DNA of 58,644 bases from a virus, in IMG/VR virus record IMGVR_UViG_3300025652_000075, positions 1 to 58,644 of that record. One strand, 5' to 3'. This document shows, piece after piece, positions 1,556 to 10,670 of this stretch. Under the pieces are notes generated by a model, which saw only the letters and a list, made by a program, of their open reading frames with translations, did no database searches and was not told where the DNA came from. Made by a program: the position numbers and the translations under genes. Every line of letters begins with the position of its first letter. Within the stretch, counting starts at the first letter, position 1.

Positions 1556-4500
1556 TTAAATTGTTACAGTGTAAGTTGCGCTAGCTTCAAATGGTGAAGG
1601 TGGTGTGAATGAATATACTTTATAAGATATGGCGCTAAATCCATTGGCTCCTTCTACATCAACCAGAGTGGGTGATCCAAAAGATCCCTTAACATCTGCA
1701 TTAAGACCTTCTGCATAAAGAACACTAGTAACATTTCGAAGAGTATTTGGGTAAGAGAAATTAACACTTACTGCACCAGCAGGAATGTTAATTGTGAAAG
1801 ACGAGCCATTCCCTGGGTTTAAAACACTATTAGATAAAGCTCTTATACCAGCACTAGTATTATCACTGAGGTTAGTTCCATAAAAAGCTCTTCGTCTTCC
1901 ATTTACGGTTAGCGACTTCACCACGCTTCCAGCTGGCAGTGGGCTTAAATAATTGCTGCCCACGCTGTCAAGTGGTTGCGGGCCTTCTGCGTAATCAATA
2001 GAAACATTAAAAGTATTAGCACCATCTGTAATTACAACAGCAGGTTGACTTAAAGTAGATCCGCCCTGTGTTGTTGTAATTATAGAAGTTCCACTAAATT
2101 CGTATGAGTTTGCTGCCCCGGCTCTGTTTGCTTGCTTTAGGCCTGGATCCCAAATATTATCAGTGAGAGCTCCGTTAATTGCGCCTGCATTAAAGCCGGC
2201 CGATAGATTAATTCCCGTTGTACCAGCTTCTACTGATGAGGCTAGATTATCAGTAAGGGATGCAGAGGGGTTTACGAAAGTTGGAAAATATGTTTGTTTC
2301 AATAACTGCTCTACAAACTCTTGCAAAGTCGTGCCGCTTGTAACAACATCAGCCGTTGAAATACTTCCAACATTAACATCAGATGTAACATCAGCGGTTA
2401 AATCACCTCCACCCACATCACCTATAGCAGCATCAACTTCTGTTTTAGTATATGTAGTTAATTGATCTGCTTTTAAATTTAAAGCAGTTTGAGTTGCTGT
2501 ACTAACTGGTTTATTAATATCAGATGTATTATTAACATTTCCTAAACCAACTTGAGTAGCAGTTACGGTATGAGGATTAGTTGAATCAGAAACGTGATTA
2601 GATAAATCAGATGAATTTGCCTTTAAATTTAAAGCAGTTTGAGTTGGTACAGATACGGGTTTGGTTGCATCAGATGTATTATCTACGTTACCAAGTCCAA
2701 CTTGAGTAGCAGTTACGGTATGAGGATTAGTTGAATCAGAAACGTGATTAGATAAATCAGATGAATTGGCCTTTGAATTTAAAGCAGTTTGTGTTGCTGT
2801 ACTAACTGGTTTATTAATATCAGATGTATTATCTACGTTACCAAGTCCAACTTGAGTAGCAGTTACGGTATGAGGATTAGTTGAATCAGAAACGTGATTA
2901 GATAAATCAGATGAATTTGCCTTTAAACTTAAAGCAGTTTGTGTTGGTCCAGATACGGGTTTGGTTGAATCGGCCGTATTATCTACGTTGCCTAAACCAA
3001 CTTGAGTAGCAGTTACGGTATGAGGATTGGTTGCATCAGAAACGTGTGCGGTCAACGCGGTTTGATCTGCTTTTAAATCAAAAGTAATATCTGAAATTTC
3101 TTTTACAACTCCAATAATATTTTGAGTTCTATCACCACTAATTTTAGGGCAAATTATATAAAGTTCAGCTGTTGCCTTTGGTATAGAATAAACTTTAGCT
3201 ACATCTATCTGGCCACATATTAAAGTTGTTTTTGAATTATCAGTATTACAGTAAACGGCCATAGTATTACTGCCTATTGGAGATGCAATAATTTCCCCGC
3301 ATGTTATATCAGTTTTTGCATTTCCATCTAAGCCAAATAAGTAAAACGCGAATGAGTTATCGCCTGTAAGATTTACTCTGCCAAAAGTTAAATTACCGTC
3401 TTCATCACTTTGATATCCTTTTGCGTCAGTTGGAATATAAATCTCGCCAATATTTACTTTACACCTGTTAATACTCTGTTCAGACCTAATACCAATGCCA
3501 CCGGTTTGTGAACCGGCTTCACCTCGCATATCTAAAGTATTAGCAGTATAGTAAGAATTTGTTGCATTAACAAAATTAACTAAAGTGGAGCCAGGTGTGT
3601 TTGTGTCGGCATAATGAGTATCAATAACACAGGATGAATTATTACCAATAGTAAGGTTTCCAATAAATGTTGATGTTGGCGCAAACACGTGAATGTTATC
3701 TGAAATGTTTACATTTCCTTCAAAGTATCTGCCACCATCTAAAACATCAATTCTTACACTTCCTACAAACCCTGGTTCAGCTATTAAAGTTTGCGCTGCA
3801 TTCACAGCACTGGTTATTGTTAATTTTGCATCATCAATATTTAAACCCTGGTTAATATTATTACCAGTCTTAGAAACATATATAGAATGAGTTTGGTCAG
3901 TTAATTCTACTGGGCCACCTGTTCCTGTACCACCCTCAATATCTGCAGCTACCCATGTTTGAGAATCTGTATCATAGAGAATACCTTGGCCCTGCGCCGG
4001 CGGATTTGAAAGAAAATCAACATCAATTAACTGTTCTAAAGAAACATCATGCGGATTGGTTTTACTTAAGGCATGACTGTTTAAAGCTGTTATTCCACTT
4101 GAATTACTAGCAATAGCCGAGTTGACAGTAGATGCAAAATTCTCGTCATCGCCAAGAGCCTCAGCCAATTCATTAAGAGTATTTAATGCACCGGGCGCGG
4201 AATCAATTAAATTAGTAACTTTTGTATCAACTTCTGTTTTAGTATATGTAGTTGATTGATCTGCTTTTAAATTTAAAGCAGTTTGAGTTGGTCCAGATAC
4301 GGGTTTGGTTGCGTCGGCTGTATTATCTACGTTGCCTAGTCCAATTTGATCGGGAGCAACTTGATGAGGATTGTCTCTCCTAAGTGCATGCGAATCGGGT
4401 ACTGGATCGGTATTATCGCCCAGCCCCAAGTCCGAAGTCTCACTAATAACACGTGGGCTAACTTCGAAGATACCTTCTAAAACTCTAATTACTGTGCCGC

Positions 4501-4771
4501 TGTCACTGAAAATCTCAGCATCATAATAATACCGCCCGGCCTTCATAGCAGCGGTTTCTTCTGAGGTCAATGATAAACCTATAAGACCATCAGCTTGATC
4601 AATATAATCACATGAAAGGTTTACTCCATATTCGGATTTATAAGTTTTCCTAACTTGTCCTCTAACATTGTAGCCGGTACAATCAAAAGCAGAGCCGTCT
4701 TTGTTTTCAACATTGACGGCTACAGAAAAAGTGCTGCCTTTGTCGGCATGCAAATCGATATTGGTTGACAT
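1556..4771 (-). CDS. Large repeat-containing tail fibre/structural protein (1071 aa)
   Basis: The N-terminal ~110 residues form a compact beta-rich domain (MSTNIDLHADKGSTFSVAV start) seen at the head of structural proteins in marine T4-like phages (family knowledge, not verified here). The rest carries at least five phage tail repeats of the VGLGNVDNT type, at about residues 140-175 and, in tandem, 575-790. A region of about 280 residues without that repeat lies between, and a separate C-terminal domain spans about 800-1071. At DNA level the tandem part repeats with a period near 150 bp. It is probably a trimeric fibre or baseplate-attached structural protein. It has its own late box at 4777-4784 and is followed directly by a second fibre gene. 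Which tip contacts the host cannot be told from sequence. Confidence 0.85.
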   Translation of the reverse strand: MSTNIDLHADKGSTFSVAVNVENKDGSAFDCTGYNVRGQVRKTYKSEYGVNLSCDYIDQADGLIGLSLTSEETAAMKAGRYYYDAEIFSDSGTVIRVLEGIFEVSPRVISETSDLGLGDNTDPVPDSHALRRDNPHQVAPDQIGLGNVDNTADATKPVSGPTQTALNLKADQSTTYTKTEVDTKVTNLIDSAPGALNTLNELAEALGDDENFASTVNSAIASNSSGITALNSHALSKTNPHDVSLEQLIDVDFLSNPPAQGQGILYDTDSQTWVAADIEGGTGTGGPVELTDQTHSIYVSKTGNNINQGLNIDDAKLTITSAVNAAQTLIAEPGFVGSVRIDVLDGGRYFEGNVNISDNIHVFAPTSTFIGNLTIGNNSSCVIDTHYADTNTPGSTLVNFVNATNSYYTANTLDMRGEAGSQTGGIGIRSEQSINRCKVNIGEIYIPTDAKGYQSDEDGNLTFGRVNLTGDNSFAFYLFGLDGNAKTDITCGEIIASPIGSNTMAVYCNTDNSKTTLICGQIDVAKVYSIPKATAELYIICPKISGDRTQNIIGVVKEISDITFDLKADQTALTAHVSDATNPHTVTATQVGLGNVDNTADSTKPVSGPTQTALSLKANSSDLSNHVSDSTNPHTVTATQVGLGNVDNTSDINKPVSTATQTALNSKANSSDLSNHVSDSTNPHTVTATQVGLGNVDNTSDATKPVSVPTQTALNLKANSSDLSNHVSDSTNPHTVTATQVGLGNVNNTSDINKPVSTATQTALNLKADQLTTYTKTEVDAAIGDVGGGDLTADVTSDVNVGSISTADVVTSGTTLQEFVEQLLKQTYFPTFVNPSASLTDNLASSVEAGTTGINLSAGFNAGAINGALTDNIWDPGLKQANRAGAANSYEFSGTSIITTTQGGSTLSQPAVVITDGANTFNVSIDYAEGPQPLDSVGSNYLSPLPAGSVVKSLTVNGRRRAFYGTNLSDNTSAGIRALSNSVLNPGNGSSFTINIPAGAVSVNFSYPNTLRNVTSVLYAEGLNADVKGSFGSPTLVDVEGANGFSAISYKVYSFTPPSPFEASATYTVTI
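2541..3060 (-). repeat. In-gene tandem repeat, ~150-bp unit, about four copies
   Basis: The segment containing acttgagtagcagttacggt recurs at about 2551, 2700, 2850 and 3000 with near-identical flanks. It encodes the 50-residue unit NPHTVTATQVGLGNVDNT plus linker. Diverged copies occur near 4290 and in the neighbouring fibre gene near 1240. Such near-identity allows unequal recombination and copy-number change. Confidence 0.9.
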
Positions 4772-5061: not shown

Positions 5062-5327
5062 TACTCTTCTTCCTTTGATTTTATATCTGCTTTGGCTTTA
5101 TTAGCTAAAGTGTTTTGAATACCAACATATGCTTGTTCAATTTGATCGCGTTGCATTTTTGATAAACTACTGGTTTTATTTTTAATGAATTCATATTCAG
5201 CTGAGACATCAATCATTATTTCTTTTTGAAATTCATCTAACTCTTCCTCGCCAACTTCATTTAATATACCAAAAGCTAAGCGACGTTTAAAGTGGTAATC
5301 TGGTTGATTTATATTTGTTTGTTTCAT
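5061..5327 (-). CDS. Hypothetical protein, 88 aa
   Basis: Not recognised. The protein is mostly charged and probably helical, with the acidic stretch NEVGEEELDEFQKEI at about 23-37 and an EAQ-rich C-terminal helix. It overlaps the stop of the ClpP-like gene upstream by one base (ATG at 5327) and the thioredoxin-like start downstream, so it belongs to the same operon. No catalytic motif, signal peptide or membrane segment is visible. Confidence 0.75.
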   Translation of the reverse strand: MKQTNINQPDYHFKRRLAFGILNEVGEEELDEFQKEIMIDVSAEYEFIKNKTSSLSKMQRDQIEQAYVGIQNTLANKAKADIKSKEEE

Positions 5328-6013
5328 TATGATTTCTTTTTAATAGTTTTTCTTTTAGTGGTTTTCTTTTTAGTAGTTTTCTTTTTAGTCTTAATAGGCT
5401 TAACTTCGCCCATTGTTTCTTTTTCTTTTAACCTAGCAATAACAGTTTCGGCATCCATCCAAACATCTTTATCTTCGACAAGCTGTGAAATTTCATTTGT
5501 AGTTAGAAACCCTTCATATGCGTGCCTTAGTAGTTTCTCAGTCCACTTTCTTTCATGCATTACGCCGTGATAAATTTCTGCGCCCTTTCCAACAACTCCA
5601 CCTGAATAGTTATGGAAAAGAAACACACTATGATCGGTTACTGTAAACTCATCACCCATTAAAAATAGAAGAGTCGCAGCTGACATACATGCGCCTTCAA
5701 CACACATAACAACTGTTGCTTTAGTCTCTGAAAGAACTTGCATAAATTGAATCGTTGTAAACAAATCCCCACCTGGGCAATTAATATGAAAGCGAATAAT
5801 ATCAGATTCACGTGCTGCACGAATTCGTTGAAACCAATCAATATAATCTGAGGCTGGTCCGATCTGAGATGAAATATAAAAATCAGAAATTGTACCATAG
5901 TCAGTAACAAATGGATCGTTGCGTCTTTGGACCATCATATCTTTTAACGACGGCTCACTCTCATTTCTTTTATTGTTATCGGGTTGTATCATAATAGTTT
6001 TGTATAGTTTCAA
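5327..6013 (-). CDS. ClpP-like serine protease with lysine-rich C-terminal tail
   Basis: A family S14 (ClpP) fold is supported by the oxyanion-region motif CPGGD at 79-83, the nucleophile in GACMSAATLL (Ser111), the histidine in VFLFHNYSG (His134) and an acidic residue in EDKDVWMDAE (Asp181 or Asp183). Length to residue 203 is that of ordinary ClpP. It then ends with about 25 residues of KKT/KKK repeats, not typical of ClpP. Possible roles are degradation of host proteins with host ClpA/X-like unfoldases or a capsid-associated protease. T4 prohead protease gp21 is a different family (S77) and is not seen in this window. The first ATG overlaps the exonuclease gene by 38 nt; Met8 at 5992 is an alternative start. 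Confidence 0.88.
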   Translation of the reverse strand: MKLYKTIMIQPDNNKRNESEPSLKDMMVQRRNDPFVTDYGTISDFYISSQIGPASDYIDWFQRIRAARESDIIRFHINCPGGDLFTTIQFMQVLSETKATVVMCVEGACMSAATLLFLMGDEFTVTDHSVFLFHNYSGGVVGKGAEIYHGVMHERKWTEKLLRHAYEGFLTTNEISQLVEDKDVWMDAETVIARLKEKETMGEVKPIKTKKKTTKKKTTKRKTIKKKS

Positions 6014-9219: not shown

Positions 9220-9648
9220 ATGAACCTATCAAATAAAAATGAAGCTTTAGAAAATGTTGCTAAAGCAATTCTCGAAGGCAACACTATTGAAATTGAAGAA
9301 ACTCTTCAAGAAGTTAACGGTGACGCCTATCGTTGGGAAGATATTAATAACGCTCTAATGCAAGCGGGCTTTGGGCCAAAGGTTATCATTAAAGTTTTAA
9401 TGAAGCTTAAAGGTAAAAAGATTAAAGAAGGTGTTGAACTTGATGAAGCTACTAAAATTAAAGCTTGGACTAGTGGCGGAAGAACTGCCAATGAATATGC
9501 TGAACTAACACAATTTGCTGGTCCAAAGGATCTTGAAGATAAAATTGGTACACGTAAAATGGTACAAATTACAATTGGCAAAAAGTATATTGAACTTAAT
9601 ATGTCTGACGTTGACGTTCTACAAAAACTTTTAAATAAGATCAAATGA
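9220..9648 (+). CDS. Probable packaged internal protein, paralogue 1
   Basis: The N-terminus MNLSNKNEALENVAKAILEG is shared with the next two genes and ends in I-L-E, a match to the (L/I)-x-E cleavage rule of the T4 prohead protease. Residues after about 75 (AWTSGGRTANEYAELTQF...GTRKM...NDVDVLQKLL-like) resemble the body of the third paralogue (9987-10340). The middle part (EDINNALMQAGFGPKVI) is specific to this copy. I see no known domain. It follows a late promoter and overlaps the next gene by 4 nt (ATGA). Confidence 0.72.
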   Translation: MNLSNKNEALENVAKAILEGNTIEIEETLQEVNGDAYRWEDINNALMQAGFGPKVIIKVLMKLKGKKIKEGVELDEATKIKAWTSGGRTANEYAELTQFAGPKDLEDKIGTRKMVQITIGKKYIELNMSDVDVLQKLLNKIK

Positions 9649-9983
9649 ACTTATCAAATAGAAATAACAGTCTTGAAGAAGCGGCAAAGGCAATTATGAG
9701 TGAGAATGCAATTATTCATAATGATTTTCTTAATAAGAATCTCGGAAAGGAATTGGATCTTACAATTTCTAGCGTTTCACAAGTTCAAAGATCGCCTGGT
9801 AAGTTTGGTAAAGCCTGGGTTATGACTTTCAAAGGGTATGACAAGAAAAACAAGAGCGGTATGAAAGCCGAATTCGGTTTTGATCCAAAGCTTAGCAAGA
9901 AGTATAAAGCAGGAGATAAAGTTAAAGTAGTTCTAAGTAATAAACCAAACTATCCAAACATTACTTCAATAGAAAAAATTTAA
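9645..9983 (+). CDS. Probable packaged internal protein, paralogue 2
   Basis: It shares the N-terminal peptide (MNLSNRNNSLEEAAKAIMSE), here ending M-S-E rather than I-L-E, but the body differs from the other two. That body is a beta-rich, basic ~90-residue domain (WVMTFKGYDKKNKSG...KAGDKVKVVLSNKPNYPNITSIEKI) which looks like a small OB/SH3-type barrel. The same leader on an unrelated body suggests the leader is a targeting tag rather than part of the fold. ATGA overlap with the preceding gene. Confidence 0.7.
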   Translation: MNLSNRNNSLEEAAKAIMSENAIIHNDFLNKNLGKELDLTISSVSQVQRSPGKFGKAWVMTFKGYDKKNKSGMKAEFGFDPKLSKKYKAGDKVKVVLSNKPNYPNITSIEKI

Positions 9984-9986
9984 TAT

Positions 9987-10340
9987 ATGAATCTATCAAA
10001 TAAAAACAAAAGGCTTGAAGATGCGGCTAAGGCGATTCTTGAGGGTAAACCCATTAAAGAAGAAGCAAAGGTTCTGCTTGAAAAAACCGAATTGGCTGGA
10101 TGGGAAGATGGAGGAACACATGCAAACTCCACATTTAAGCTTCTTGAATTTATTGGCCCTGATGAATTGGAATCAAAGTTAGGCACTCGTAAATGTTTAG
10201 AGATTGAAAAGGTTAGTGAAAGCCGCACATCTGGTTCGGCTCGAAGAACATTCATGAGCTTAAACGCAAATGACATTAATGAATTAAGAGAGTTTTTAGC
10301 AGAATACTCAACAGAAAAAGACGAGCCAAACCTTAAGTAA
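9987..10340 (+). CDS. Probable packaged internal protein, paralogue 3
   Basis: N-terminus MNLSNKNKRLEDAAKAILEG with I-L-E as the candidate cleavage site. The body (GWEDGGTHANSTFKLLEFIGPDELESKLGTRK...SLNANDINELREFL) aligns by eye with the C-terminal half of paralogue 1 (AWTSGGRTANEYAELTQFAGPKDLEDKIGTRK), giving a conserved domain of about 65-70 residues. No known family is recognised. It is the last plus-strand gene before the bidirectional terminator at 10354-10395. Confidence 0.72.
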   Translation: MNLSNKNKRLEDAAKAILEGKPIKEEAKVLLEKTELAGWEDGGTHANSTFKLLEFIGPDELESKLGTRKCLEIEKVSESRTSGSARRTFMSLNANDINELREFLAEYSTEKDEPNLK

Positions 10341-10353
10341 GATATACATTTAG

Positions 10354-10395
10354 AAAAACACCCGCTCTGAATTAAACCAGTGCGGGTGTTTTATT
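10354..10395. terminator. Bidirectional intrinsic terminator
   Basis: An 11-bp perfect stem AAAACACCCGC / GCGGGTGTTTT (10355-10365 with 10382-10392) with T-rich tails on both strands, between convergent transcription units. Confidence 0.9.
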
Positions 10396-10400
10396 TTAAA

Positions 10401-10469
10401 TGGTGGAGGTGCCGGGTATCGCGCCCGGGTCCGTTAGCCGAAACTAGCGTCGAATTCTTTTACACCCCC
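10401..10469 (-). ncRNA. tmRNA-like tRNA-like domain without a message domain (69 nt)
   Basis: On the minus strand a 7-bp acceptor stem pairs GGGGGTG (10469-10463) with CACCTCC, then ACCA to 10401. The third pair is G-U and the base before CCA is A: the G3-U70/A73 signature read by alanyl-tRNA synthetase. After the 5' strand comes an unpaired D-region ending AATTCGACG, like tmRNA's GGATTCGACG. A tiny TAG/CTA hairpin takes the place of helix P2 and the whole message/pseudoknot region. Then come GGAC and a perfect 5-bp T-stem CCGGG/CCCGG with loop CGCGATA. Full tmRNAs are ~350 nt. It sits 3 nt after the 65-aa gene and just before the terminator, so it is probably the 3' end of the operon transcript. 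Confidence 0.7.
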
Positions 10470-10472
10470 TTT

Positions 10473-10670
10473 TTATTTATTTTTCTTTGGTCTAACACGG
10501 AGACTTTCAAGTTCACGAATCTCTTTTAAAATATCAACGAGCTTAGCTTCGCTCTTTTCAAGCTCTGATGATAGCTTTGTGTTTTTATATTTGTAATATT
10601 TTGAATCCCACTTAAGGCATTCCAAACGGTCAAAAATATACTTTTGTTTTAGCTCTTCTATCTTTTCCAT
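10473..10670 (-). CDS. Small coiled-coil protein (65 aa)
   Basis: Almost entirely predicted helix and coiled coil, rich in K/E/L with heptad-like spacing (KLSSELEKSEAKLVDILKEIRELE), ending in the basic tail RVRPKKNK. It is the last protein gene of the early operon that runs from the promoter near 12034, and is followed 3 nt later by the tmRNA-like element. No homologue is recognised. Confidence 0.65.
   Translation of the reverse strand: MEKIEELKQKYIFDRLECLKWDSKYYKYKNTKLSSELEKSEAKLVDILKEIRELESLRVRPKKNK

Follow-up and report, generated by a model that had tools for sequence, protein, structure and literature searches.

The stretch of DNA analysed here (the window, 58,644 nt) is a fragment of a T4-like phage, and on its minus strand (10469-10401) it encodes a 69-nt RNA that resembles tmRNA reduced to its tRNA-like domain (TLD). 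tmRNA is the bacterial RNA that rescues stuck ribosomes. We suggest that the phage RNA is probably a host-alanylated, SmpB-binding competitor of host tmRNA that blocks or diverts tagging. The case for its identity as a TLD-only tmRNA-like RNA is strong, and its function we infer. TLD-only tmRNA is a known kind, named from one phage (DS6A) and two plastid genes in the portions of the literature found. New here are a divergent member, the window RNA, and a phage family far larger than any we found described. The parts of the locus, in window coordinates, are as follows.

10401..10469, minus strand: TLD-only tmRNA-like RNA, 69 nt (Rfam tmRNA, model R1, conserved in relatives)
10463..10469, minus strand: acceptor 5' arm GGGGGUG, in which G3 pairs with U70 (sequence; family G3-U70)
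10449..10454, minus strand: D-region UUCGAC, with AGAA before it (sequence; covariation with T-loop position 55)
10432..10449, minus strand: reduced P2 helix CGCUAG-UUUCGG-CUAACG with one C.A mismatch (sequence; family P2 pairing)
10429..10432, minus strand: GGAC, its A being the equivalent of E. coli tmRNA A334 (family conservation; PMC8363625)
10412..10428, minus strand: T-arm CCGGG-CGCGAUA-CCCGG (sequence; compensatory C-G to U-A in L012)
10401..10411, minus strand: acceptor 3' arm CACCUCC, A73 and encoded CCA (sequence)
10355..10392, no strand assigned: hairpin terminator (-22 kcal/mol, z -6.6), between the RNA and converging plus-strand genes
10473..10670, minus strand: 65-aa ORF ending 3 nt before the RNA (no PHROG match; absent here in L012)

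The RNA (GGGGGUGUAAAAGAAUUCGACGCUAGUUUCGGCUAACGGACCCGGGCGCGAUACCCGGCACCUCCACCA) reads, segment by segment, GGGGGUG UAAAAGAAUUCGACG CUAGUUUCGGCUAAC GGAC CCGGG CGCGAUA CCCGG CACCUCC ACCA, and the first C of the CCGGG that follows GGAC opens the T-stem. A first-pass annotation of this DNA had described a 7-bp acceptor with G3-U70, A73 and an encoded CCA, a tmRNA-like D-region, and GGAC followed by a perfect T-stem. All of these are present, with GGGGGUG/CACCUCC as the acceptor, AUUCGACG as the D-region and 5 bp in the T-stem. The T-loop that it called unusual, CGCGAUA, does depart from the normal tmRNA UUCRANY. It had also reported that the message domain is absent. This holds in that the RNA has neither a tag reading frame nor pseudoknots, and only 15 nt lie between UUCGACG and GGAC. 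However, those 15 nt are not structureless. Together with flanking bases they form a reduced P2 (C-G, G-C, C.A, U-A, A-U, G-C, loop UUUCGG) that spans the stretch between UUCGA and GAC. In the window lineage the T-loop is odd at C54, G55 and A60, and the D-region has one extra base. The computed tRNA-like form, at -20.7 kcal/mol, lies 5 kcal/mol above the minimum of -25.8 kcal/mol. The median gap in the family is 5 kcal/mol too, as would be expected if contacts between D-loop and T-loop, together with protein, stabilise the fold.

The RNA aligns over its full length with the Rfam tmRNA model (RF00023), from model position 1 to 374 with about 308 of these skipped (E 3.2e-13), and no other family of the same Rfam clan fits better. 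The first-pass annotation had proposed this covariance search. Because the score (35.2 and 46.2 bits in two runs) is below the gathering score of 47 bits, a default Rfam scan is empty. Shared with canonical tmRNA are the G3-U70 acceptor, A73, the CCA end, UUCGAC without a D stem, and GGAC before the T-arm; the UUCRANY T-loop, tag frame, pseudoknots and an Rfam gathering score are missing. As in a TLD-only phage RNA, both tmRNA ends are joined with no tag frame or pseudoknots between them, in a T4-like phage. A covariance model, R1, was made from 27 phage-family sequences, none of the window's lineage. In the window it finds this RNA as its sole match (48.3 bits, E 4e-9), far beyond chance, and the window RNA and its sisters have the lowest R1 scores in the family among the matches listed. 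The R1 background is at most about 40 bits for ordinary tRNAs, and at most 36 bits in four bacterial genomes. Across 200 Bacillota genomes R1 gave four matches: one true member (L471, 63 bits, with a tRNA array and a gene resembling a prophage sigma factor next to it), two at full-length tmRNA genes and one degenerate. The identity of tRNA-Ala was rejected, since the sequence has neither a D stem nor an anticodon arm and ARAGORN reports 0 genes in it. Permuted tmRNA (RF04321) was rejected as well, since the RNA runs 5' to 3' in one 69-nt unit and the permuted model matches over its first 84 positions only. A separate observation is that L158 and L159 (15723-15800) carry a tRNA with anticodon CAU whose D-region, GAAUUUCGACUUGG, gives it a tmRNA-like score.

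The element is maintained in related phages. No homologue of the window sequence came up among phage records when the locus and the element were searched by BLASTN, and structure-type patterns were used for this reason. Three sister contigs (L113, L107, L018) are about 94% identical over the locus and identical in the element. In a more distant sister, L012, the flanks have 75-89% identity and the element keeps 66 of its 69 bases. Two of the three differences are a compensatory change of a T-stem pair from C-G to U-A, and the third falls in the P2 1x1 mismatch. Random mutation of the stems in a relative had been named as the observation that would count against the element; in L012 the stems are kept. 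The upstream 65-aa ORF is missing at the locus in L012, where the RNA follows another gene. The related T4-like L201 and L205 (RNR 74%, other window proteins 45-60% identity) have a TLD-only RNA at a different genome place, with the same GUUUCGGC P2 loop and an ordinary UUCGAUU T-loop; its P2, acceptor and T stems are rebuilt relative to the window RNA. Near RNR homologues of 72-80% identity no TLD-only RNA was found at the same place.

Structure-type patterns in IMG/VR recovered at least 142 distinct TLD-only RNAs with G3-U70, 60-86 nt long up to A73 and falling into at least about 70 clusters below 80% identity. Since the scan for the pooled candidate set demanded acceptor and T-stem pairing, this pairing is excluded as evidence, and the invariance of UUCGAC is no evidence because UUCGAC is in every search seed. 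To avoid circularity, an acceptor-blind pattern left the acceptor and CCA free. Among the matches listed for it, a perfect 7-bp acceptor occurs in 68 of 72 distinct hits, and these perfect-acceptor members have G3-U70 in 67 of 68 and A73 in all 68. Acceptor positions 4-7 vary in this set, and neighbouring acceptor pairs are G-U in 0-3%. An encoded CCA, present in the window RNA, is rare (1/68). The P2 helix, never demanded by the searches, is 94% paired across the family. For 74 distinct sequences, pairing holds in 97.1% of cells. Double-changed cells number 401 (shuffles: 117), and the covariation score is 0.709 compared with 0.130 after shuffling; sliding the partner by one base lowers pairing to 55%. 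Pairing was also assessed on a MAFFT alignment (A2) alone. The A of GGA is A in 142/142 members among the matches listed, undemanded by any pattern. By our own count from the E. coli sequence it corresponds to tmRNA A334, which contacts SmpB (PMC8363625).

T-loop position 55 changes together with the D-region base that precedes G19: GG goes with UU or UC, and AG with UG or CG (20/3 versus 0/55 over all distinct sequences). After 80% dereplication, which removes relatedness only in part, the counts are 6/2 versus 0/29 (p 1.2e-5). The window RNA has the AG/G55 combination, which accounts in part for its odd T-loop; among the matches listed, G55 recurs in 18/142 members and C54 is peculiar to the window lineage.

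Many members are located in phage tRNA arrays. They include those of the Streptomyces phages LuckySocke (L443 3001-3078) and BRock (L444 1991-2068), both within such arrays; Stenotrophomonas phage Jojan60 has one at L445 2001-2080. These three score 61-67 bits and none is annotated there as an RNA gene. Since 39 of 44 family records pass the Rfam tmRNA cut-off, TLD-only RNAs can easily end up with a tmRNA annotation though tagless. Among the matches listed, six TLD-only RNAs (L200-L205), which came from a pattern with one N fewer between T-arm and acceptor in viral contigs, have an acceptor and T-stem stack one bp shorter (6+5 or 7+4). The same pattern in genome contigs gave four hits, all unrelated and rejected. 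Also rejected was L218 216-276 (minus strand), which holds a 3' piece of tmRNA directly upstream of a full-length tmRNA gene, as left by element integration at ssrA.

The carrier phage has a major head protein with 68.5% identity to that of Stenotrophomonas phage DLP_6 and 67% to that of the marine methylophage Melnitz, and it encodes a UvsX-like recombinase and a UvsW-type helicase. The terminator beyond the RNA has its inner part in opposite orientations in sister lineages (CACUGGUUUAAUUCAGAG for the window, CUCUGAAUUAAACCAGGG for L009, L018 and L113). A ClpP-like ATP-dependent protease (5327-6013, minus strand, phrog_1827), possibly linked to tag-dependent degradation, is kept in L201 and L205, which carry their own TLD-only RNA. 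The neighbouring plus-strand ORFs 9220-9648, 9645-9983 and 9987-10340 have a common N-terminus, MNLSNKN/RN..LE..AKAI, and the window ORFs 8795, 18517, 20949 and 24068 start with MKSFK-F-I-E or similar, much like the capsid-targeting leaders of T4 internal proteins. The 1071-aa tail-fibre-like protein at 1556-4771 (minus strand) has several repeat copies around NPHTVTATQVGLGNVDNT and matches itself in BLAST. A search for an SmpB gene found none in 48 records (44 family records, the window and three sister contigs), which are partly fragments; one of the sister contigs is 170,716 bp long with four tRNAs. Thus, the RNA would rely on host SmpB, AlaRS and EF-Tu.

Known systems suggest how such an RNA could act. 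All known tmRNA partners except S1 bind the TLD, and AlaRS is directed by G3-U70 and A73 (PMC3968760). With bacterial one-piece tmRNA (RF00023) the window RNA has in common the G3-U70 acceptor, A73, D-region, GGAC and T-arm, whereas it is without the approximately 305 nt that make up the tag frame, pseudoknots and most of P2. The closest likeness, by description, is mycobacteriophage DS6A, whose 'TLD only' tmRNA (Mao et al. 2009, as cited in PMC4131195 and PMC11915505) is a phage gene of little beyond the tRNA-like domain, with no tag frame or pseudoknots. In contrast to DS6A, the window RNA belongs to a different phage group (T4-like marine) and has the unusual T-loop. Also alike by description are organellar RNAs: the CDS-less plastid tmRNAs of Mallomonadaceae (~65 bp, PMC11915505), cut to about the tRNA-like domain, and mitochondrial tmRNA (RF02544), which has no tag frame. 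The related T4-like marine phage Melnitz has a tmRNA gene that is complete, two-piece and permuted (PMC9004378), whereas the window RNA is unpermuted and tagless. A related guess on role has been made for the tmRNA of phage Lacusarx (PMC5648845). Finally, the alanyl-TLD of a crystal structure (Neubauer et al. 2012, as described in PMC3968760) is of the same kind, a TLD without message domain that binds and enters stalled ribosomes with SmpB and EF-Tu. That molecule is a laboratory construct and the window RNA is a natural gene; the phage RNA may thus be a natural version of it.

On these grounds we favor the following course of events. RNase P and 3' trimming would cut the RNA out of a minus-strand transcript, host AlaRS would charge it with alanine through G3-U70/A73, and host SmpB and EF-Tu would bind the charged form. 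Host tmRNA would then face a rival for both SmpB and the ribosomes that stall on cut mRNAs. Without a tag frame the phage RNA would add no degradation tag, so that trans-translation tagging would be blocked or diverted during the phage's takeover of translation, presumably to the benefit of the phage. The structure of the RNA, its conservation with compensatory changes and the retention of the bases for alanine identity and SmpB contact are established directly. That it would inhibit tmRNA is argued by analogy: in E. coli, tmRNA is strongly inhibited by an RNA similar to the DS6A form, whether or not that RNA can be charged, perhaps through SmpB titration, as reported in PMC4131195 and PMC11915505. 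Because this published inhibition needed no charging, SmpB titration alone leaves the strictness of G3-U70 unexplained. The strict conservation suggests that charging matters, and a charged, ribosome-entering competitor is thus likelier than SmpB titration alone.

The same conservation could point to rescue without a tag, in which the alanylated RNA enters the stalled ribosome with SmpB and adds alanine to the nascent chain without a template; a hydrolase or release factor would then free the ribosome, and the phage would recycle ribosomes and spare its own unfinished proteins. Pure SmpB titration would not require the nearly exceptionless G3-U70 and A73, and mitochondrial tmRNA is likewise tagless and co-occurs with SmpB (PMC11915505). 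However, nothing would place a codon or release factor after translocation, and in E. coli the similar RNA was inhibitory (PMC4131195), so we regard this reading as unlikely though worth keeping in mind. Its general form, that phages widely encode an alanylated, SmpB-dependent RNA for tagless, template-free rescue replacing host trans-translation, with the window RNA among the most reduced and derived forms, is a similarly doubtful proposition. It is improbable that the RNA works outside trans-translation, as a sponge or carrier for some other protein that handles tRNA (AlaRS, EF-Tu, RNase P, a tRNA nuclease or another defence factor). The acceptor/T half is what all of these proteins recognise, and tRNA arrays do hold many of the family, but a plain acceptor/T mimic would have no use for the tmRNA-specific D-region and the A334 equivalent, which are both kept (the D-region was in the search seed, the A was not).

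We give still less weight to a dead remnant of a captured full tmRNA gene. The atypical T-loop and the lowest score in the family would fit decay, whereas the element is identical in sisters about 6% diverged, changes by a compensatory pair in L012 against the more diverged flanks, and has the same architecture in the many clusters of the family. With an ORF ending 3 nt ahead of the RNA and a terminator directly behind it, the element might serve only as the tRNA-like 3' terminus of the upstream mRNA, stabilising that mRNA or aiding its 3' processing, and never act as a separate RNA. This we consider very improbable, since L012 has the RNA behind another gene and since alanine and SmpB determinants would be superfluous there. 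The first-pass annotation had offered either a decoy or regulator of trans-translation or a 3' end for one early mRNA; the former gains a precedent, by analogy, in DS6A and the E. coli inhibitor, and the latter is set aside because in relatives the RNA follows other genes or is part of a tRNA array. That the element is a tRNA, degenerate or armless, and not derived from tmRNA hardly deserves consideration. The tRNA-CAU of L158, with a chance UUCGAC, does reach 39.8 bits on R1, but the window RNA has no 5-bp/7-nt anticodon arm (the P2 loop is 6 nt), and the ARAGORN and Rfam clan results speak against it. A competitor of host tmRNA is the reading that we retain.

In the literature search, which covered sources other than subscription papers such as Mao et al. 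2009, there was no report that TLD-only tmRNA is spread among phages. The findings also carry a warning, in that Rfam labels these RNAs tmRNA although they are incapable of tagging. A large and diverse phage family strictly keeps the alanine-charging pair and the SmpB-contact base. Interference with trans-translation thereby becomes a strategy of phages that is general and open to test, and the isolated phages LuckySocke, BRock and Jojan60 carry members.
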